Positions 9,069-46,421 of a stretch of 64,000 nt of DNA are shown here, in pieces. Source of the DNA: Elusimicrobiaceae bacterium (GTDB lineage: Bacteria; Elusimicrobiota; Elusimicrobia; Elusimicrobiales; Elusimicrobiaceae); assembly GCA_016281355.1 (NCBI GenBank), contig JAEEIL010000012.1:62001-126000 (forward strand), in the 5' to 3' direction. The position numbers and the translations under genes are program-made. The notes beneath the pieces were generated by a model, which was given only the letters and a program-made list of their open reading frames with translations, was not told the origin of the DNA and did no database searches. Within the stretch, counting starts at the first letter, position 1. The number at the start of each line of letters is the position of its first letter.

Positions 9069-9713
9069 TTAATTATTAGACGACATTAAATTCATCAAAC
9101 TGATAAACAGGTTAATAATATCAAGGTAAATACTGATAGCAAAATTTAAGGCTGTATCCCAATTATTTGCATCTGCGACTGCTTTAAGTTTGGCAAGGCG
9201 GTTAAAATCAAAAAGTAAATAACCCGTAAAAATTAAAACCCCCAAACCTGCCATAAATTTTTGACCGCGTATGCGGACAAAAATTCTAATCAAAGAATAA
9301 ATCACTAAAATTATAAGTGCGATAAATAAAAATTTGCCCAACCATTCAAAATCAAGGCCGCTGTACATAGCAATTAAACCCGTCAAAAAAGCAGTTAAAA
9401 CCGTCAAAGAAAGTGCTTTTTGCGCTGTATCATTATGTGCGATAAAATAAACACCTAAAGTGAAACCGCTTGACGCTGTAAAAAGTACCATCAAGATCAT
9501 ATTTAACGGGAAAGCCGTTCTCACAAACATTAGTACTAAAAATACAATGATGTTTATTATTATCGCAAAAAGCGAGTATTTTTTTATTGCAGGATAATCT
9601 TGCATTTGCAAGGCCCTGTTAAACAAGCGTGCCGCAAACATGCAGGCAAGCCATGCGACCGTTAAGGATGCGGTCAATATTATGAAAGTTTTTGACATTA
9701 GTGTTTCAAACAT
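9069..9713 (-). CDS. Bax inhibitor-1/YccA family membrane protein
   Basis: 214 residues with seven hydrophobic helices covering nearly the whole chain. The closing region (LLFDFNRLAK then ALNFAISIYLDIINLFISLM) matches the conserved last two helices and re-entrant acidic region of the BI-1/UPF0005 family, which includes the pH-gated calcium-leak protein BsYetJ and the FtsH-interacting protein YccA. It sits in the inner membrane. The gene stands alone, convergent with the small RNA and divergent from the C_GCAxxG_C_C gene. TAGGGGGAT precedes its ATG, and a dyad overlaps its predicted transcription start. Confidence 0.88.
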   Translation of the reverse strand: MFETLMSKTFIILTASLTVAWLACMFAARLFNRALQMQDYPAIKKYSLFAIIINIIVFLVLMFVRTAFPLNMILMVLFTASSGFTLGVYFIAHNDTAQKALSLTVLTAFLTGLIAMYSGLDFEWLGKFLFIALIILVIYSLIRIFVRIRGQKFMAGLGVLIFTGYLLFDFNRLAKLKAVADANNWDTALNFAISIYLDIINLFISLMNLMSSNN

Positions 9714-9725
9714 AAATCCCCCTAA

Positions 9726-9741
9726 ACTCGGCGTGCCGAGT
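9726..9741 (-). promoter_or_regulatory. 7-bp dyad at predicted start of the BI-1 transcript
   Basis: ACTCGGC and GCCGAGT face each other across 2 bases. On the minus strand an extended -10 (TGGTATTAT; hexamer at 9748-9753) would start RNA near 9741, so the dyad is either an operator over +1 or a 5'-terminal hairpin just ahead of the ribosome-binding site. Confidence 0.5.
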
Positions 9742-9774
9742 AATAAAATAATACCAAATTTAGCAGATAAATTG

Positions 9775-9780
9775 TAAAAT
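9775..9780 (+). promoter_or_regulatory. -10 element predicting a leaderless mRNA
   Basis: TAAAAT ends exactly six bases before the ATG at 9787, so transcription would start at or next to the start codon. No ribosome-binding site is visible. Confidence 0.5.
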
Positions 9781-9786
9781 TTATTT

Positions 9787-10233
9787 ATGACAAAAAGTGA
9801 AATTGCAAAAAATTATTTTCTGCAAGGTTATAATTGTGCGCAGGCCGTTTTCTTGGCTTTTGCTAAAGACGAAGGTTTAAGCGAAGATGTTGCCCTTAAA
9901 ATAGCATCATCTTTTGGTGGCGGGCTTGGCGCGCAACGTGAAGTTTGCGGTGCCGTAAGCGGTATGTGTATGGCTCTAGGCTTAAAACGCGGTTATAATA
10001 CCGCCAAAGATTATGCGTCCAAACAAAAACATTATTTGGCGGTGCAAGAAATTTGTGCCGAGTTTAAAAAGCAAAACGGCAGCATAATTTGCCGCGAACT
10101 TTTAGGGCTTGATAAAAATAATTTACCACTTAAACCCGAGGAACGCACCGGGGAATATTACAAAAAACGCCCTTGTGCGGAACTTGTTGCCATGGCCGCG
10201 GAAATCTTAGAAAATTATCTTAACAAAAAATAA
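9787..10233 (+). CDS. C_GCAxxG_C_C family protein (putative redox)
   Basis: 148 residues. The name-giving cysteine pattern is present: an early Cys in YNCAQAVF (about residue 17), then VCGAVSGMCM around 56-66, and later cysteines in EICAEF, IICREL and RPCAEL. Family members are small, often found in anaerobes, and are thought to bind a metal or act in redox reactions; the reaction is unknown. The gene lacks a Shine-Dalgarno sequence and appears to be leaderless. It converges with the nitroreductase gene, whose stop abuts its own. Confidence 0.88.
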   Translation: MTKSEIAKNYFLQGYNCAQAVFLAFAKDEGLSEDVALKIASSFGGGLGAQREVCGAVSGMCMALGLKRGYNTAKDYASKQKHYLAVQEICAEFKKQNGSIICRELLGLDKNNLPLKPEERTGEYYKKRPCAELVAMAAEILENYLNKK

Positions 10234-10827
10234 TTAACTTAAAATTTTAAAACGTTTTTCAAGCGGCTCAAAAGTTTTCTCTTGCGGTGCGCTTAAAATT
10301 TCCCCAAAAGGCATTTGCGCAATAAGCCGCCAAGTGGCAGGCACTTTAAAAGCAGTGCGAACATCCGCGTCAATTATTGGGTTATAATGTTGCAAACTTG
10401 CACCGATCCCAACGCCGGCCAAAGCGCACCAAATTGAAAATTGCAACATCCCGTTTGATTGCGCCGCCCATATCGGAAAATTGACTGCATAAGCCGGGTA
10501 TTGTTTTTGTAAATTTTCGGTTATTAAAAGATCCTCAAAATACAAAATTGTTCCGCTTGCTTTTGCAAAAGTGCCTATTTTCTCTTTAACAGTTGTAAAG
10601 TTTTCCGGCGGAACTTTTTTGCTTAAAACACTCAAAACGATATCCCAAAGTTTTTTGTGATTCTTATTTTCAAGCAAAATAAGGCGGGCGCTTTGGCTGT
10701 TAAAAGGCGTTGGCGCAACAAGCATACAGTCTTTTATAATTTGCGGAACCGGTTTTTGTTTTTCCGCAGGCAACGGCCCAAGGTCATAACAAGAACGGCG
10801 TTTTTTTATCGTTTCGTTAAATTCCAT
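10234..10827 (-). CDS. Nitroreductase family protein
   Basis: About 197 residues. The N-terminal FNETIKKRRSCYDLG matches the FMN-phosphate-binding RRS segment of nitroreductases; FNSQSARLILL and the GVGIGASLQHYNP region match the core and the Frm2/YdgI-like group. These flavoproteins use NAD(P)H to reduce nitro-aromatics or quinones or to maintain redox balance. ATG 10827 is chosen because GGGGG lies just upstream; an in-frame TTG at 10839 is less likely. It is expressed from a consensus promoter back-to-back with that of TetR, with a palindromic operator over its start. Confidence 0.88.
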   Translation of the reverse strand: MEFNETIKKRRSCYDLGPLPAEKQKPVPQIIKDCMLVAPTPFNSQSARLILLENKNHKKLWDIVLSVLSKKVPPENFTTVKEKIGTFAKASGTILYFEDLLITENLQKQYPAYAVNFPIWAAQSNGMLQFSIWCALAGVGIGASLQHYNPIIDADVRTAFKVPATWRLIAQMPFGEILSAPQEKTFEPLEKRFKILS

Positions 10828-10841
10828 ATTTACCCCCAAAT

Positions 10842-10865
10842 ATAACCCTTATAGGTTATATAACC
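10842..10865 (-). promoter_or_regulatory. Probable operator of the nitroreductase gene
   Basis: Three GGTTAT half-sites are arranged as ATAACC-6-GGTTATATAACC, the last part (10854-10865) being a perfect 12-bp palindrome. The predicted minus-strand transcription start (about 10860) lies inside it, the classic position for a repressor. Confidence 0.65.
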
Positions 10866-10866
10866 A

Positions 10867-10895
10867 ATAATAAAATTTTTCTTCTCAAATGTCAA
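10867..10895 (-). promoter_or_regulatory. Promoter of the nitroreductase gene
   Basis: On the minus strand TTGACA (10895-10890), exactly 17 bases, then TATTAT (10872-10867). Confidence 0.8.
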
Positions 10896-10902
10896 TAAAA
10901 AT

Positions 10903-10931
10903 TTGACAAATATTTTAAAAACTCCTATAAT
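10903..10931 (+). promoter_or_regulatory. Promoter of the TetR gene
   Basis: Perfect TTGACA (10903-10908), a 17-base spacer and perfect TATAAT (10926-10931). Its -35 is only 7 bases from the -35 of the opposing nitroreductase promoter. Confidence 0.88.
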
Positions 10932-10937
10932 TTAAGC

Positions 10938-10967
10938 ATACAGTGTGCTAACAATACAGCACAGTAT
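10938..10967 (+). promoter_or_regulatory. Probable TetR autoregulatory operator
   Basis: TGTGCT (10944-10949) and AGCACA (10958-10963) form an inverted repeat flanked by ATAC and GTAT. It starts six bases after the -10, so a bound protein would block initiation. Its sequence differs from the operator at the nitroreductase promoter. Confidence 0.6.
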
Positions 10968-10981
10968 TGAAAGGATAAATT

Positions 10982-11578
10982 ATGGCCTATTCAGGCGGCG
11001 TTAAATTACAAGATGATATTTCAAAAAAAATCATAGATACCGTTACAAAAATGGTCTATGAAGGCGGTGCATCAAAAATAAATGTGCAAGCCGTTTTGAA
11101 AAAATTGAAAATTACAAACCGCGTTTTTTATAACCGTTTTAAAAATATTGAAGAAGTTTTGCTTTGCGTTTCACAAAATATCGTTCAAAAAATGCACCAA
11201 TGCATTTTGCGCCCTATTGATAAAAAAGAAAATTACCACAAATATTTAATGAATATTGCATCAGACGTTTTCATAAAAACTTATGAAATTAAAAAAGATT
11301 TCAGCGACTATATGTTTATGAATGATATCGTCAATGAAAGTAATAAAATTTGGTGGATTGACCATATGATCCCCCTCTTGGAATACGGTATTAAAGAAAA
11401 GTTTTTAAAGCCGATGGATGTCCACGCAATGTCCTATGCAATTTGGTGTTTTTGTCGCGGTTTTAACGTGGATGCAATAAAAAGCCGTCTGGAATTTAAT
11501 GAGGCATTAAAAATTTTCCAAACAGCCTTTGGGTTCTTACTTGACGGGATGACTTTAAATAAGGATACAAGAAAATGA
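10982..11578 (+). CDS. TetR/AcrR family transcriptional regulator
   Basis: 198 residues. The N-terminal 60 residues form the TetR helix-turn-helix: helix 1 KKIIDTVTKMVYEGG, then INVQAVLKKLKITNRVFYNRFKN, where the usual Tyr-x-HF of the recognition helix appears as FYNRFKN. The C-terminal half is helical and Trp/Phe-rich, consistent with a ligand-binding domain. A strong ribosome-binding site (AAAGGA) precedes the ATG. An inverted repeat over its own start suggests autorepression. Its stop overlaps the thioesterase start by 4 bases (ATGA), so that enzyme is its co-transcribed partner. Confidence 0.9.
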   Translation: MAYSGGVKLQDDISKKIIDTVTKMVYEGGASKINVQAVLKKLKITNRVFYNRFKNIEEVLLCVSQNIVQKMHQCILRPIDKKENYHKYLMNIASDVFIKTYEIKKDFSDYMFMNDIVNESNKIWWIDHMIPLLEYGIKEKFLKPMDVHAMSYAIWCFCRGFNVDAIKSRLEFNEALKIFQTAFGFLLDGMTLNKDTRK

Positions 11579-11988
11579 TTATTACCTATAAACGCAAAGC
11601 ACAATACCATGAAACTGATAAAATGGCCGTCGTGCACCACTCAAATTATATAAAGTGGATGGAAGAAGCCCGCGTTCATTTTTTAGATAAAATAAATTTG
11701 CCTTTTACCGCAATGGAAGATGCAAATATTTTCAGCCCGGTGGTGAGTTTGACTTGTAAATATCAATTTCCTGTTTGGTTTGATGATGAATTTGAAGTCC
11801 GCGTTAAAGCGGTAAAATATACAGGTGTCCGTGTAAATTTTGAATATGAAATTTTTAATTTAACCAAAAACAAACTTTCCGCAACTGCCGCAAGCGAGCA
11901 TTGTTTTACTTCTAAGGAAGGCAGGCCTTTGTCAGTTAAGCGTGCAAACCCCGATATGCATGCTTTACTTGAAAACTGCATAAAATAA
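11575..11988 (+). CDS. Acyl-CoA thioesterase, 4HBT hotdog family (YbgC-like)
   Basis: 137 residues with the YbgC/FadM signature: YHETDKMAVVHHSNYIKWMEEAR, in which the Asp of ETD and the following HHSNY form the active-site region of 4-hydroxybenzoyl-CoA thioesterase-type hotdog enzymes. These hydrolyse acyl-CoA or acyl-ACP thioesters in the cytoplasm. Translationally coupled to the TetR gene (4-base overlap), suggesting that the regulator senses an acyl compound. Confidence 0.9.
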   Translation: MIITYKRKAQYHETDKMAVVHHSNYIKWMEEARVHFLDKINLPFTAMEDANIFSPVVSLTCKYQFPVWFDDEFEVRVKAVKYTGVRVNFEYEIFNLTKNKLSATAASEHCFTSKEGRPLSVKRANPDMHALLENCIK

Positions 11989-12053
11989 ATTAATTTAAAA
12001 GGTATTCTCTTTTATTTGTTATAATTATATTATATTTATATAGGAGAATTATT

Positions 12054-12956
12054 ATGTCTATTCCGCCGTACCAATATTTTATGACCCCCGCTTTAAAAGC
12101 ATTGGGGGATAAAAAATTAAAGAGCGTGAAATCAGTAGAAGAAATTGTTGTAAAATCTTTATCAATAAACAAAGAAGATTTAGAACAACTTCTTCCCAGT
12201 GGTACACAAACAATAGTTAGAAATAGAACTAATTGGGCTCTTTATTATATGTTTAGAGCTGGATTGCTTGATAGAGAAAAAAGAGGTTTTTATAAAATAA
12301 CAGATCTTGGTTTAAAAGCACTGAATGAGAATGTAGAAATTAATAATTCTTACTTAGAAAAGTTTGATAGTTTTAATGAGTTTAGAAATGGTGAAGATGT
12401 TAAAGAGAAAATAGATGTAAATAATGAATTATCTCCTAATGAACAAATAAATAGTGCTTTAGATTCTATAAATAACAAGTTACAAAATGATATCTTGGAA
12501 AAAATTAGGAATGTTGATGATGTTTATTTTGAAAGAATTATTCTAGATTTACTTGTTAAAATGGGGTATGGCGGCAATAGAGAAGATGCTGCAGAAATGA
12601 CAAAAAAGAGCCATGATGGTGGTATAGATGGAATAATTAAAGAAGATCCCTTAGGAATTAGTAAAATTTATATGCAAGCCAAGAAGTATACAAATGAGAA
12701 AGTTCATTCTAAAGAAATGCGTTATTTTTTGGGGTCATTAAGAGAAAATAATTCTAGTAAAGGTATTTTTGTTACGGCAAGTGATTTCGATCCCAAGGCA
12801 ATTGAAATGGCTTCAAAGGGAAATATTATTCTCATTAATGGTAAACAACTTGCTAAATTGATGCTTCAATACAATATTGGTGTTATAAATAAACAAACTA
12901 TTGAAATTAAAGAGATAAATCTATCTTACTTTGATGATGAACAGTCGTTTTGTTAA
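12054..12956 (+). CDS. mrr: Mrr-type restriction endonuclease (type IV restriction)
   Basis: 300 residues. Residues 1-100 match the Mrr N-terminal winged-helix domain (PPYQYFMTPALKALG ... NWALYYMFRAGLLDREKRGFYKITDLG). From about 155 the Mrr catalytic domain follows: FERIILDLLVKMGYG, then the PD-(D/E)xK core as HDGGIDGII with IYMQAKKY (the QAK variant), then GIFVTASDF. Mrr enzymes cut DNA methylated in foreign patterns. A strong ribosome-binding site (TAGGAGAA) precedes the ATG; TATAAT at 12020-12025 may be the -10. There is no neighbouring methylase, as expected for type IV. It converges with pcrA on a shared terminator. Confidence 0.92.
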   Translation: MSIPPYQYFMTPALKALGDKKLKSVKSVEEIVVKSLSINKEDLEQLLPSGTQTIVRNRTNWALYYMFRAGLLDREKRGFYKITDLGLKALNENVEINNSYLEKFDSFNEFRNGEDVKEKIDVNNELSPNEQINSALDSINNKLQNDILEKIRNVDDVYFERIILDLLVKMGYGGNREDAAEMTKKSHDGGIDGIIKEDPLGISKIYMQAKKYTNEKVHSKEMRYFLGSLRENNSSKGIFVTASDFDPKAIEMASKGNIILINGKQLAKLMLQYNIGVINKQTIEIKEINLSYFDDEQSFC

Positions 12957-25928: not shown

Positions 25929-27458
25929 ATGAATCAACGTAAAGCTGGTGTTTTACTTTCATATTTAGCAACCGGAATACATAGTGTTATACAGTTGGTG
26001 TATGTGCCGTTGTTGTTGTATTATTTAAGCAAGGAACAATATGGAATTTATCAACTGATGGGTTCCCTGATTGCATATTTGGCTATTATGGATTTCGGTC
26101 TTGCGAATACTACAACGCGTTATTTATCACAAGCATATGCTGTAAATGATGAAATAAGTGCAAAACGTATCATAAGTACATCTCACACACTTTATTTGTT
26201 TTTTGCGTTAATTGTTGTTTTATTAGGTGGAATTTTTTACGCATTTATTCCCAAGTTATATGGTTCTACACTTGGTGCAGCAGATCTATTAATTGCCAAA
26301 CAGATATTCTTAATAATGTTATTCAATATCGCCGTTACAGTTCCGGCTAATATCTTTGTTGCAACAATCAATGCTTACGAGCATTTTATATTTATACGAG
26401 GCATTAATTTGTTAAAAATTATTTTACAACCATTGATTGTTTGGGCAATTCTGGCTTGGAAAGCTTCAGTATTAAATTTAGTGCTTACGCAAACAATTTT
26501 TAATATAATTACTATTTTAATCAATTACATTTACTGTAGAACTAAACTTAATATTTCTTTTCCTTTTAATATGTCCGATAGAGAACTTATGGGGGAATTG
26601 ACAGGTTTTTCTTTCTTCGTTTTCTTGCATAGTGTAATGGATATGATTTTTTGGCGTTTGGGGCAACTTGTGCTTGGAGCTTTGATAGGTGCTGCTGCGG
26701 TTGCTAATTACGCAATTGCTATGCAGTTGGCTATTTTTACTATTTTATTGCCGACAAATATGAGTAGTGTATTTTTACCGCAGCTTTCTGCAATTACATC
26801 TAAAACGAAAGATATGACTCAAATCAATGATATTTTCTGTAAATTAGGTCGCTTGCAATATATGTTTATAATGTTGTTATTAATAGGGTTTGCTTTCTTG
26901 GGTAAAACATTTATTATGCTTTGGATAGGCCCTGGATATAATGTGTGTTATTATATAACACTTATGTTTATTGCAGCATATGTTTTGGATGTCTCCCAAA
27001 ATATCGGGAATCCTATTTTACAAGCGATGAAAAAACATGCTTTTCGTGCTTATGTCTATGTAACAATGTCATTATTAGATATTATTTTGTGTATTATACT
27101 TGCCAAACGCTATGGTGAAATAGGTTGTGCCGTGGCCACGGTAATTTGTTTGATAATCGGTTCAGGTTTTGCTATTAACTGGTATTATGCCCGTATCGGT
27201 ATTGATTTGAAAAGATTTTTTTATAATTTATTTTCCATAAGTAAAGGTATTATTTTAAGCCTTGTGCTAATTATAGGTTTATTTTATATTTGGCCTGTAA
27301 AAAACACATGGGAGAGTTTATTTTTTCATGGGTTGATAATGTCCAGTATTTATTGTATATTAATTTGGGAAATGGCATTTAATCGATATGAAAAAGATTT
27401 AATTATAAAACCACTATGTAAGATGAGGACAATATGCAAAAAAATTATCAGAATTTAA
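25929..27458 (+). CDS. wzx: Polysaccharide repeat-unit flippase (Wzx, MOP superfamily)
   Basis: 509 residues with 12-14 hydrophobic helices. N-terminal region KAGVLLSYLATGIHSVIQLVYVPLLLYYLSKEQYGIYQLMGSL matches the polysaccharide biosynthesis/MatE-like start, where the YG(I/x)Y motif after helix 1 is typical. It moves lipid-linked repeat units across the inner membrane for EpsG-type polymerisation. Its end overlaps the UDP-galactopyranose mutase start by 25 bases. Confidence 0.9.
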   Translation: MNQRKAGVLLSYLATGIHSVIQLVYVPLLLYYLSKEQYGIYQLMGSLIAYLAIMDFGLANTTTRYLSQAYAVNDEISAKRIISTSHTLYLFFALIVVLLGGIFYAFIPKLYGSTLGAADLLIAKQIFLIMLFNIAVTVPANIFVATINAYEHFIFIRGINLLKIILQPLIVWAILAWKASVLNLVLTQTIFNIITILINYIYCRTKLNISFPFNMSDRELMGELTGFSFFVFLHSVMDMIFWRLGQLVLGALIGAAAVANYAIAMQLAIFTILLPTNMSSVFLPQLSAITSKTKDMTQINDIFCKLGRLQYMFIMLLLIGFAFLGKTFIMLWIGPGYNVCYYITLMFIAAYVLDVSQNIGNPILQAMKKHAFRAYVYVTMSLLDIILCIILAKRYGEIGCAVATVICLIIGSGFAINWYYARIGIDLKRFFYNLFSISKGIILSLVLIIGLFYIWPVKNTWESLFFHGLIMSSIYCILIWEMAFNRYEKDLIIKPLCKMRTICKKIIRI

Positions 27459-28552
27459 TTGTAGGTGCCGGTATAAGTGGTGCAGTTTTGGCTAGATTAC
27501 TTGCGGAAAATGGGCAAAGTGTTTTAGTTATTGATAAACGTAGTCACATCGGTGGTAATTGTTATGATTACACGGATGAAAACGGTATAAATATCCATAA
27601 ATATGGCCCACATATTTTTAGAACCAATGATGAACAAATTTGGCAATTCTTATCACGTTTCACCGCTTGGCATGAGTATACACATAAAGTGCGTTCTAAA
27701 ATTAATAATAAAGAAGTGCCTATACCTTTTAATTTTGAATCTATAGATATTTTGTTTGATAAACAAAAAGCTAAAATTTTTAAAGAAAAATTACTTAAAA
27801 ATTACGGAAAAAATAAAAAAGTTCCAATACTGGAATTAAAAAAATTTCCGGATGCGGATCTAAAAGAACTTGCAGATTTTATTTATGAAAATGTTTTTTA
27901 TCACTACACACTAAAACAGTGGGGTTGCGAGCCTGAAGAACTTAGTGCAGATACATTAGCGAGAGTTCCTATATATACAAGTTATTACGACGGTTATTTT
28001 ACCGAGAAATATCAAGCCATACCTGTGCCGGGTTATACAAAAATGTTTGAAAACATGTTAAATCATCCAAACATAAACATACAACTAAATATAGATTTTA
28101 AAGATTTAAAAGATATTAATTATGAACGTTTGTTTTACAGCGGTTCTATTGATGAATTTTTTAACTATAAATTTAATGCGCTGCCATATCGTAGTCTGAA
28201 TTTTAGGTTTAATACATTGGACCAACAAAAATTTCAAAGCGTAGCAGTTGTCAATTATACCGGACAAGAAACATATACGAGAATAACGGAGTTTAAGCAT
28301 TTTTTAAATCAACAAACGCAAAAAACTACTATCGCTTACGAATATCCTTTCACTTTTGAGGTCGGAAAAAATAAAAGATATTACCCTATCCCCAAGAGGG
28401 AAAACGAACAACTCTATCAAAAATATTTAGAATTGGCGAAGAAAGAAAAGAATGTCTATTTTATCGGCCGGCTTGGTGAATATAAATATTATGCCATGCA
28501 AAATGCTGTTTCAGCAATTTTTAAATTATTTAAAAAATTAAACCCCGTTTAA
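27434..28552 (+). CDS. glf: UDP-galactopyranose mutase
   Basis: 372 residues. FAD Rossmann motif VGAGISGAV at about 10-18; SHIGGNCYDYTDENGINIHKYGPHIFRT is the classic Glf N-terminal text; HYTLKQWGCEPEEL, ARVPIYTSYYDGYF and the arginine-bearing C-terminal FIGRLGEYKYYAMQNAV complete the signature. It converts UDP-Galp to UDP-Galf with reduced FAD, so the glycan encoded by this cluster probably contains galactofuranose. Last gene of the cluster; a hairpin overlaps its stop. Confidence 0.96.
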   Translation: MQKNYQNLIVGAGISGAVLARLLAENGQSVLVIDKRSHIGGNCYDYTDENGINIHKYGPHIFRTNDEQIWQFLSRFTAWHEYTHKVRSKINNKEVPIPFNFESIDILFDKQKAKIFKEKLLKNYGKNKKVPILELKKFPDADLKELADFIYENVFYHYTLKQWGCEPEELSADTLARVPIYTSYYDGYFTEKYQAIPVPGYTKMFENMLNHPNINIQLNIDFKDLKDINYERLFYSGSIDEFFNYKFNALPYRSLNFRFNTLDQQKFQSVAVVNYTGQETYTRITEFKHFLNQQTQKTTIAYEYPFTFEVGKNKRYYPIPKRENEQLYQKYLELAKKEKNVYFIGRLGEYKYYAMQNAVSAIFKLFKKLNPV

Positions 28553-28644: not shown

Positions 28645-29814
28645 CTATAAAGTTACAGTCCAACCTTTTGCAGTTGCTATTGCTTTGTCGTCATCAGTTA
28701 AGTCATTAGCACCTGTACATCCTGTAACATTGATAATCTGCCCACCTGTTACAGTCGGTAAATCATTGAACAAAGTAACAAGTGCAGTTCTATCCATTCC
28801 TGTGTAAGATACATTTATTTGTGGTGCAGTACCGTCATTAAACGGTGCTTGACTTGATACTCTTAAACCTTTTAAACCCGACATAAAGTTTGTAGAAGAA
28901 CCGTGACAACCTATTGCTTTTAAACCTCTAGCGGCAGAGGCATCTATAACAGTATCACTTAAGTTTGTTGCTTCAGTTAAAAAATCTTTTGCACTTGTGA
29001 CATTAGTCCAATTTACAAAATTAGGTAATTGTGTTAATGCATAGCAATTTTTGAAAAAATTGTTTATATTAGTTCCTGTTACAGATACATTGTCAAACTT
29101 TATTTGTTTCAATTCTTTACAGTTATTGAAGCAAGCGGGGGTGTATTGTTTTATATTTATATTTTTTAAAGTTATTTTAGGTAACTTTTCACACCCTGCA
29201 AAAAAGTTCTCTGCGGGACTACTTATATTACTTCCGTCAATAAGAGGTACATATTCTAAAGATTTACAATCGTAAAAAGTAAAATAAACATCTCCTTTAA
29301 GAATATTGTTTTTTGCAGTTATGGCGGTAGTAAGCCAATTCTTATAGTAACTATATTTATTTAACAACCATCCTATTGCGATTGAATTTTCTATGTTGAA
29401 ATGTACCCATAAAACACCTTGTTCTTCATATCCGCTATCTGCTACTCTTGAACAGTTAAATGTTGTTATATTATTACCTTCATTTTGTGGATAAATATCG
29501 ACAATATGAGCTTTACTTGCCCCTATAGGGTAATCAATAATATAACCATCTGTGTCGGTATACTGGGACCAGTCTGCCATTGAAAAATGTGCTTGACTGC
29601 TATAATCTTGGTAATATTCTCCGTCGATATTTACATAATAACCGCCATTGCAGGTAGCAGAAAAACCAAGAGGATATCTGTTATCTACTAATAATCTAAT
29701 GCTGTTTTCTCTAACATTTCTACTGATATTTGGCCAACTGCTTGGTTTATTAAAACCGTTTTTTTTACCTATTTTTAAATCAGCTAAAAGAGAATTTTGC
29801 AAATTGTATAGCAT
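28645..29814 (-). CDS. BspA-type leucine-rich-repeat protein, phage tail-like
   Basis: 389 residues, no signal peptide, no membrane helix. Residues about 175-285 carry five BspA-like LRR units with the pattern F-x2-C-x2-L-x2-(I/L)-x-(L/F) (FYDCKSLEYVPL, FFAGCEKLPKITL, CFNNCKELKQIKF, FFKNCYALTQLPNF, then a degenerate unit). The C-terminal 60 residues (SYTGMDRTALVTLFNDLP, IINVTGCTGANDLT, AIATAKGWTVTL) resemble, from memory, a capping module seen on BspA-like proteins of gut bacteria and on phage tail proteins. With the 100-residue gene upstream it forms an orphan two-gene minus-strand unit between the polysaccharide and M50 operons. Role unproven; phage origin or adhesion are both possible. Confidence 0.75.
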   Translation of the reverse strand: MLYNLQNSLLADLKIGKKNGFNKPSSWPNISRNVRENSIRLLVDNRYPLGFSATCNGGYYVNIDGEYYQDYSSQAHFSMADWSQYTDTDGYIIDYPIGASKAHIVDIYPQNEGNNITTFNCSRVADSGYEEQGVLWVHFNIENSIAIGWLLNKYSYYKNWLTTAITAKNNILKGDVYFTFYDCKSLEYVPLIDGSNISSPAENFFAGCEKLPKITLKNINIKQYTPACFNNCKELKQIKFDNVSVTGTNINNFFKNCYALTQLPNFVNWTNVTSAKDFLTEATNLSDTVIDASAARGLKAIGCHGSSTNFMSGLKGLRVSSQAPFNDGTAPQINVSYTGMDRTALVTLFNDLPTVTGGQIINVTGCTGANDLTDDDKAIATAKGWTVTL

Positions 29815-29823
29815 AATATCTCC

Positions 29824-30126
29824 TTATTGAATAGAAATTTTTAAATCGTTAGAGATAACTCCGGTCAAATCAGCTTTTAAATAAAGATTAGCAAATTGTA
29901 AAAAGATTACAGTATTGGATTTCAGTTCAATTTGTTCACCTTCTTCGTTGTTTAGAGGATAAAAGTTTGTTCCGTCTTGGGAAATCGTTAATTTTGGCGT
30001 ACCGGCTGAAATTGTACCTGTTGTAAGAACGCTTACGCAATTAGTTATGCCTTGATGCAATGCAATATCTTTTAAATTTACGGCCTCATTTAGTGGGGTA
30101 GTTTGTGATAAATCAGTAATGATCAT
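29824..30126 (-). CDS. Small phage structural-like protein
   Basis: 100 residues, beta-rich, no signal peptide. The text LTISQDGTNFYPLNNEEGEQIEL with LKADLTGV resembles small phage virion or baseplate-associated proteins with a jelly-roll-like pattern; this is recollection, not a search. ATAGGAG precedes the ATG, and the LRR gene follows after 9 bases. A possible minus-strand promoter (TTGCTA, 18 bases, TATATT) lies near 30170-30205. Confidence 0.6.
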   Translation of the reverse strand: MIITDLSQTTPLNEAVNLKDIALHQGITNCVSVLTTGTISAGTPKLTISQDGTNFYPLNNEEGEQIELKSNTVIFLQFANLYLKADLTGVISNDLKISIQ

Positions 30127-30256
30127 AAAAAGAGCTCCTATTTTATGAATTTAGGCAACTCTCCCGCATTTAATATAGCAAAATTTCGGTGTAAATAGCA
30201 AGATATTTCTAATAAGTAAAATATAGCAACAGATTGCCTTAGATGTAACATATAAA

Positions 30257-42145: not shown

Positions 42146-42670
42146 ATGAGAAATGAAAAAGGTTTTACATTAATTGAATTATTAGTGGTTGTTTTAATTA
42201 TCGGTATACTTGCCGGTATTGCCTTGCCACAATATCGTATGGCGGTAACAAAATCTAGAGTAGCAAGCATTTTACCGCTTATGCGCCGTTGGAAAGATGC
42301 ATTAATGGAATATAATTTACAACATGGTAATTATGAAGTAAATGATGCATCTATTTTGGGAGTTAATTGGCCAAGTGACTGGAAAAATGGGATTGGTAAT
42401 CCCTGTGAAAATAGTTTGTATTGTAAAAATGATTATTGGGATGATTGTACAGCCAATGAGGTAGGCACGGGTTATGTTTACTGTAATAATTATAATCTAG
42501 GGTTCGGTATATACATGTATCAACCTGATGACCCTGATATGGACGAAATTTACCATGATAAAGTAATTTGTGACGCAAATAATGCCGTGGCTCATAAAGT
42601 TTGTAAAGCATTAGGTGGCGAATTAATAGATGGTGGCGAAGATGATTGGGGTTCATATTCTCTTAATTAA
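42146..42670 (+). CDS. Type IV prepilin-like protein 1
   Basis: 174 residues. Class III leader MRNEKG is cut by prepilin peptidase before Phe; the mature protein has Glu at +5 and the hydrophobic helix FTLIELLVVVLIIGILAGIALPQY. The C-terminal globular domain is Asp/Asn/Tyr- and Cys-rich (about eight Cys), suggesting disulfides outside the cell. It could be a major or minor pilin or a type II secretion pseudopilin. No assembly genes are adjacent; it stands alone between a palindromic promoter and a strong terminator. Confidence 0.92.
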   Translation: MRNEKGFTLIELLVVVLIIGILAGIALPQYRMAVTKSRVASILPLMRRWKDALMEYNLQHGNYEVNDASILGVNWPSDWKNGIGNPCENSLYCKNDYWDDCTANEVGTGYVYCNNYNLGFGIYMYQPDDPDMDEIYHDKVICDANNAVAHKVCKALGGELIDGGEDDWGSYSLN

Positions 42671-45870: not shown

Positions 45871-45917
45871 TTCAATATAAGTATAAAGACTTTACATAAG
45901 TGAATGTAGGAGAAATT

Positions 45918-46421
45918 ATGAAAAACAAATTAGGATTTACTTTGCTTGAATTATTAGTGGTAGTTTTAATTATCGGTATACTCGCAAGTATTGCTTTGCC
46001 GCAATATCAATTGTCAGTAGGCAGAAGTAGGCTTTCTGAACTTAAAATCAGGGCCAACGCAATAGCCGAGGCCGGGCATATGTACGTTTTGGAACATGAT
46101 GGAATACCGGAAGAGGAACAGCAAGGAACACTCCATTCCTTAGATCTATCAAGATTAAATACAGAATTTCCGGAAGATGATATCTCTTGCGATTTTTATG
46201 GAGCGGGAGATCGATATATCACTGTTTGCAGTAGAGTTTTTTCCGGTGCACATGTCGGATACGTAATTCGAAACTTAGATCCTTTTGGATGTAGAGTGGT
46301 GGGAACCCAAGATTCAAATCATATTGCTAGCAAATTGTGTGAACAAGATACCGGTGATGCAAATCCGGACTGTGGACTTGGCGATGAGGATCAGGGTAGA
46401 TGCTTTTATCACTATCAATAG
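45918..46421 (+). CDS. Type IV prepilin-like protein 2
   Basis: 167 residues. Leader MKNKLG, then FTLLELLVVVLIIGILASIALPQYQ with Glu at +5. The C-terminal domain has six or seven Cys and an acidic character (PEEEQQG, GLGDEDQG). ATG 45918 is preceded by TAGGAGAA; an upstream in-frame GTG/ATG at 45900 would lengthen the leader beyond the class III norm. Monocistronic with its own promoter. Confidence 0.92.
   Translation: MKNKLGFTLLELLVVVLIIGILASIALPQYQLSVGRSRLSELKIRANAIAEAGHMYVLEHDGIPEEEQQGTLHSLDLSRLNTEFPEDDISCDFYGAGDRYITVCSRVFSGAHVGYVIRNLDPFGCRVVGTQDSNHIASKLCEQDTGDANPDCGLGDEDQGRCFYHYQ

Follow-up and report, generated by a model that had tools for sequence, protein, structure and literature searches.

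Genes A and B, an adjacent pair on the minus strand of the 64,000-nucleotide stretch of DNA analyzed here (the window; G000:C18:62001-126000), probably form a receptor-binding module that is encoded apart from the rest of a domesticated particle resembling a gene transfer agent (GTA), the other genes of which are scattered in the same genome. This reading, which builds on comparative sequence analysis, can be extended. The element would then be a GTA with an autonomous receptor cassette that is linked to the polysaccharide locus and exchanged together with it. The recombining recognition locus would set the DNA recipients, and all operons would be switched via promoter-proximal terminator leaders, forming an anti-termination regulon. 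The extended version is possible, and we put it forward tentatively.

Gene A (29824..30126, minus strand) encodes a small beta-sandwich protein of 100 aa, a candidate base or adaptor of a spike or fibre, and gene B (28645..29814, minus) a protein of 389 aa, the putative variable receptor-binding protein with leucine-rich repeats (LRRs). The original prediction had described two adjacent minus-strand genes of these lengths, BspA-type repeats in B and no signal peptide on either product, and all three statements are borne out. Both reading frames are present; Pfam LRR_5 (BspA type) matches B residues 152-263 (29026..29361, minus; E 9.6e-9) with 35.7 bits against a cut-off of 27.7; and no signal peptide is apparent at either N-terminus, as judged by eye on the sequence rather than with a predictor. 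A has no family match in Pfam or PHROG. AlphaFold predicts both folds with confidence: A as a beta sandwich consisting mostly of beta strands (pLDDT 89) and B as an N-terminal peptide followed by a beta domain, the LRRs and a cap (pLDDT 90). B residues 1-19 (29758..29814, minus) are the sole stretch of at least three residues with pLDDT below 50; this short peptide is Leu-rich in most members, a Leu-containing start recurs in most relatives, and it may anchor B to A or to the particle. The C-terminal cap (residues 300-389; 28648..28917, minus; ...QINVSYTGMDRTALVTLFNDLPTV...LTDDDKAIATAKGWTV) holds many invariant alignment columns, and this module (about residues 300-389) is the best-conserved part of B across species. 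The LRR segments form a region of repeat turnover and are absent from several B relatives.

Against solved structures in the PDB, the A fold has no match at E <= 0.001, and the base of the RcGTA head spike is not among the 50 best matches listed; the A sequence gives weak, unrelated PDB matches only. Among viral structures, the A fold finds its best matches chiefly in small phage proteins (100-125 aa; best E 1.4e-3, which is weak), and the B fold matches phage LRR proteins down to E 6e-14. Two of the BFVD matches, G8EY17 and G8EY18 of Synechococcus phage S-CAM8, carry consecutive accessions, the one weakly resembling the predicted fold of A and the next that of B, which hints at an equivalent pair in this marine phage.

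The cassette adjoins the end of a polysaccharide cluster, where glf (27434..28552, plus strand; UDP-galactopyranose mutase, PF03275 7.7e-73) is accompanied by a flippase and glycosyltransferases. On the other side lie an M50 protease and then trpS and scpA/B, the last ones assigned by reading. No phage genes are found next to the pair, which agrees with the flanks as originally described, and no secretion genes are found there either. The pair is single-copy in the 1.5-Mb genome G000, with no second copy of A/B and no DNA repeat of the cassette.

Relatives were sampled as 100 genomes from genus to order level, nearly all of them draft assemblies; the window's genus (g1) is represented by 18 genomes, 11 of them of high quality (>=90% complete). 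Relatives that carry a name belong to the Elusimicrobiaceae, and several of these genomes come from the rumen or another part of the gut. Clear matches to A among the 100 genomes are restricted to this genus, where they occur in 13/18 genomes and in 10/11 of those of high quality. Among the 12 genomes with a readable next gene, the gene directly after A is of the B type in all but G004, in which an unrelated 216-aa protein occupies the B position. The presence of A with B-type genes behind it in 13/18 genomes, together with the two confident folds, puts the pair far beyond a chance arrangement. Large inserts are present in B of G002 and G013, the former LamG-like by a sub-threshold Pfam match. 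The neighbourhood recurs in kind: glf and other polysaccharide genes are close to the cassettes of clades I and II, polysaccharide export and chain-length genes to those of clade III, and sugar-nucleotide genes to that of G010.

Relatives of A and B are found in phage tail regions. In podovirus-type prophages of G014 (L058) and G013 (L059), an A-like gene is flanked by the genes for a very large polyvalent protein and for a tail protein of 481-483 aa; downstream follow a reverse transcriptase of the type found in diversity-generating retroelements (DGRs) and an M15-like peptidase, joined in G014 by a holin-like gene. On the IMG/VR phage contig L215, the order is a large protein, an A-like gene and, three genes on, an LRR_5 fibre (1.2e-39). 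As single queries, neither A nor B has a convincing close homologue among phage records or in IMG/VR, and L215 surfaced only with the A alignment. B-like sequences also occur in the sister genus g6, as the C-terminal portions of podovirus tail-fibre proteins of 600-757 aa whose genes follow those for T7-type tail tubular proteins and a PF12236 connector, and B aligns with such fibre ends from about residue 20 to its own end. Given these relatives in phage tail regions, A and B are, on sequence grounds, phage receptor-binding-region genes by descent. The two outcomes that would have counted against the original prediction, homologues known only as secreted chromosomal genes or a fixed core locus that lacks phage relatives, were checked, and neither is what is observed; the relatives lie in tail regions of Elusimicrobial phages.

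In the G014 and G013 prophages (L058, G014:C7:41000-60500, at 9549-12683; L059, G013:C88), the tail protein has a DGR-like C-terminus and is followed by the reverse transcriptase, and the A paralogue lies immediately upstream of this presumed DGR target. The cassette itself was considered as a target of a diversity-generating retroelement and rejected: G000 has no match to the prophage reverse transcriptase, which belongs to the G013 and G014 prophages, and no DNA repeat of the cassette.

The genome that carries the window also encodes a siphovirus-like particle. A terminase search identified TerL of about 400 aa, one per high-quality genome and in 11/11 such genomes of the genus. In G000 it is located at C18:132344-133537, 6 kb past the window, with a small terminase-like gene beside it and no other phage gene; in other genomes, portal and prohead protease genes are adjacent to TerL. 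An HK97-type MCP (PF05065) and the portal (PF04860, 5e-73) are likewise present in 11/11 high-quality genomes of the genus. The portal locus of G000 is on C39 and its MCP locus on C32, where the order is MCP, connector, two head-tail genes, tail terminator, major tail protein and chaperone, continuing with a putative tape measure (short, 231 aa), putative tail-tip genes (215 aa and 784 aa) and two small membrane-type proteins. PHROG and Pfam support the connector, neck, tail terminator, major tail protein and chaperone, and the gene order from capsid to tail tip is kept across the genus. No receptor-binding gene is recognisable in the tail cluster, and no integrase or replication genes occur among the neighbours read at the particle loci. 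Searches of G000 for terminase, portal and MCP returned one set only. Two of the GTA attributes listed in PMC9662315 are thus present: a virion-like inventory (TerL, portal, protease, MCP, connectors, neck, tail terminator, major tail protein and chaperone) and endogenisation at multiple loci, namely three on as many contigs of G000 (C18, C32 and C39), with dispersal in relatives too.

The particle genes have a congruent history. Trees of TerL, portal and MCP recover the same clades with bootstrap values of 98-100: {G000, G002, G003, G004, G014}, {G006, G007, G013} and {G005, G001, G008, G011, G017}. The core genes are under purifying selection, with dN/dS of 0.01-0.08 in the first clade (TerL, portal, protease, MCP and major tail protein); values for the adaptor, tape measure and tail-tip genes of this clade are 0.08-0.22. 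Of the six genera sampled, five have the MCP, namely g1 and, at 62-71% identity, g2-g5; it is missing, apart from weak matches, from the large sister genus g6, an absence that resembles a single loss. Portal, TerL and TerS lie side by side in G021, an arrangement suggestive of one ancestral particle cluster that was dispersed later. Taken together, the gene sequences fit a dispersed, multi-locus, GTA-like particle, and may also reflect the vertical inheritance and co-diversification with the host by which GTAs are defined (PMC9662315). No report of a GTA in Elusimicrobiota was found in the literature searched, and a recent study of gut GTAs does not mention the phylum (PMC12946183); the dispersed particle of this genus is apparently undescribed so far.

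G018 (1,643,562 bp, single contig) has an equivalent particle cluster plus an M15 lysin. The lysin gene lies inside the G018 tail cluster (G018:C1:1169834-1178408; L244:9835-18409) and has no counterpart in the G000 cluster, so a lysin may be encoded elsewhere in genus g1.

The cassette and the particle are connected by a shared promoter-leader. The cassette, portal and TerS operons start with TTTGCTAyATT, 3-11 bases and then a GGGAGAGCC-like sequence. The latter forms a hairpin in the majority of leaders, and a T-run often follows. In the window this element spans 30127..30182 on the minus strand, with the -10 element TTTGCTATATT at 30182-30172 and the leader GGGAGAG...hairpin...AGGAGCTCTTTTT at 30165-30127, which ends at the ATG of A; its hairpin has a folding energy of -11.1 kcal/mol (z -2.1). 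Because the leader stems differ too strongly among operons for a covariance model, a sequence pattern and a held-out profile were used. The pattern, TTTGCTAYWNTN{3,11}GAGNG, was first defined from cassette and particle leaders both. Scanned over 18 whole genomes, it matches at 32 places, namely 11 portal, 4 TerS, 6 cassette and 11 other sites, compared with 12 for the reversed-pattern control. The other sites, where inspected, are mostly within coding sequence, and one of the portal sites (G005:C98) was assigned via its distance to the contig end and the missing start of the G005 portal. G000 has three matches: the cassette, the portal and one inside coding sequence.

The cassettes were held out in the profile test, where a two-block profile trained solely on portal and TerS leaders was run on both strands of 860 kb of genus sequence enriched for particle loci. 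Particle and cassette leaders fill all of its 31 top places, and 8 of these are held-out cassettes (scores 31.8, 29.5, 24.3 three times, 23.7, 22.5 and, for the window, 22.0). The window leader is barely over the best unrelated site (21.4). The G013 cassette leader scores 17.6, and clade III cassettes score lower, sharing with the other leaders mainly the GGGAGAGCC hairpin. It is at the leaders of G000 and clade III that the regulatory argument is weakest. In the MCP operon only the hairpin is similar; the -10 position differs and carries a palindromic TTTGATACATTTGTATCA element. This palindrome, which is conserved and overlaps the -10 position in the genomes that were read (e.g., L154:15938 and L159:9653), may be the operator of the particle's regulator.

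The shared leader also bears on other explanations of the pair. The cassette could be a spare or decoy set of tail fibres that acts on infecting or resident podophages, by being incorporated into their progeny and so changing or spoiling host range, or by blocking assembly, and would then be an anti-phage or prophage-helper pair. The nearest homologues of A and B are indeed podophage tail-region genes, and in G013 and G014 a cassette coexists with a prophage that has an A-like gene of its own. However, the promoter-leader is held in common with the siphovirus-like dispersed particle, and the pattern has no match at the structural loci of the podophage-type prophages. Moreover, podophage portals (PF12236) are present in only 2/18 genomes and absent from G000, whereas cassettes are near-universal. 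We consider this explanation unlikely.

By a narrow step less probable still is a role as phage-derived adhesins or surface proteins of the host, which would leave the cell by an unspecified route and serve attachment or display beside the polysaccharide. BspA-type LRR proteins are often surface proteins, and polysaccharide genes adjoin the cassette. The N-termini as read and the lack of secretion genes beside the pair speak against export, however, as do the portal- and terminase-type leader and the alignment of nearly all of B with podovirus tail-fibre ends. The remaining alternative of this kind, in which the cassette would serve a different injection system (contractile system, tailocin) or a phage that lies unseen at another place in the genome, is improbable. 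The searches were for terminase, portal and MCP, which leaves it some room; on the other hand, G000 has one terminase/portal/MCP set, and a family-conserved particle with the cassette's own leader already offers a carrier. Of the three readings in the original prediction, an exchangeable tail-tip locus for a system encoded elsewhere is the one that finds support: a GTA-like particle is found at three other loci in G000, it has the common promoter-leader, and it has no recognisable receptor-binding gene. A domesticated receptor-binding cassette was right in spirit.

The remaining one of those readings, a prophage scar retained by chance, has phage-type genes without phage neighbours to recommend it and is rejected as most improbable for a locus that is near-universal in the genus, with gene order kept in 13/18 genomes, intact reading frames, purifying selection (dN/dS of 0.08-0.26) and its own leader-bearing promoter. 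The cassette also evolves faster than the particle core and discordantly with it. A of G000 is nearest to A of G007, which belongs to another clade (79% identity, compared with 71-72% for its clade mates), whereas its MCP is 96-97% identical to those of the clade mates. Monophyly of clade I is marginally rejected in the A tree (AU p 0.045), a tree that rests on 100 residues. B identity between genomes is 31-70%, with repeat loss, large inserts and one replacement. Since A is nearest outside its clade and MCP follows the clade, the cassette appears to have been exchanged between lineages and the particle core not. The neighbourhood leads to the suggestion that the exchange was joint with the polysaccharide locus.

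The particle occurs more widely than the cassette. No cassette is detectable in G003 and G005, both with particle genes, and A was not found in genera g2-g5, which have the particle; A is thus not essential to the particle across the family. Within the genus, 13 genomes have both A and MCP, 2 MCP only, none A only and 3 neither (hypergeometric p about 0.012), a co-occurrence that is confounded by genome completeness and is not relied on here.

How a receptor-binding module encoded apart from its particle might operate can be considered by analogy to RcGTA (Rhodogtaviriformidae), with genes at five loci (PMC9662315). The RcGTA head spike consists of a jellyroll base, Rcc01079, and a fibre, Rcc01080, that is held by a Leu-rich N-terminal peptide (PMC7296036), and it binds capsule (PMC10218006). 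In the same manner, A would be a small beta-sandwich base or adaptor protein of the particle, and B the fibre, with N-terminal anchor peptide, beta domain, LRRs and conserved C-terminal cap. Particles would be made, would carry host DNA and would bear A and B, on the head or, as phage gene order suggests, on the tail. B would bind a cell-surface receptor, probably a polysaccharide, as the RcGTA receptor is (PMC10218006), and the cassette may thereby influence which cells receive particle DNA. The likeness to RcGTA includes scattered particle genes and, in the roles proposed here, a separate pair of small beta-fold base and fibre with an anchoring peptide and a surface polysaccharide as receptor. 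The differences are that no sequence relation of the RcGTA spike to A or B was found, that A has no significant Foldseek match to solved structures, and that the A/B pair, unlike that of RcGTA, adjoins polysaccharide genes, varies strongly and seems to be exchanged between lineages.

The cassette would be turned on with the portal and terminase operons, given their common extended -10 element and the hairpin, usually terminator-like, immediately after it. With these features in common, a shared activator or anti-terminator would release all leader-bearing operons, a proposal based on the position of the hairpin and the precedent of the Caulobacter GTA (CcGTA), where GafY and GafZ combine activation with anti-termination through terminators (PMC11150451). 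Analogous control is conceivable here, with the difference that the hairpins lie immediately behind the promoter of each dispersed operon. The Brachyspira GTA (BhGTA/VSH-1) is likewise from a gut bacterium outside the Proteobacteria and has a single conserved terL outside its main cluster (PMC9662315); the Elusimicrobial element has, in addition, portal and protease split from the capsid cluster, the common leader hairpin and a separate receptor cassette. Compared with phage tail fibres of the BspA/LRR_5 type, B resembles phage LRR proteins, and small phage beta proteins of ~110 aa weakly resemble A. L215 has its A-like and LRR_5 genes close together, whereas the cassette consists of the pair alone, belongs to no phage gene cluster and has a promoter-leader of its own.

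If the proposal is correct, Elusimicrobiota, a phylum with members in animal guts and rumens, would join the few lineages with a candidate GTA. Nature would thereby offer a case where the module by which a GTA recognises its recipients evolves apart from the particle, beside polysaccharide genes. The long-standing question of which cells receive GTA-borne DNA would become directly testable. With the common leader as a sequence signature, the members still missing from this scattered phage-derived machine could be sought, and its regulator as well.

A further class of genes was noticed in the course of reading these loci. Many short prepilin-like genes with near-identical starts are present in the window (42146-42670 and 45900-46421) and at L058, L060-L063 and L111-L112. 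They often lie near particle or prophage loci, and one was confirmed by Pfam N_methyl.
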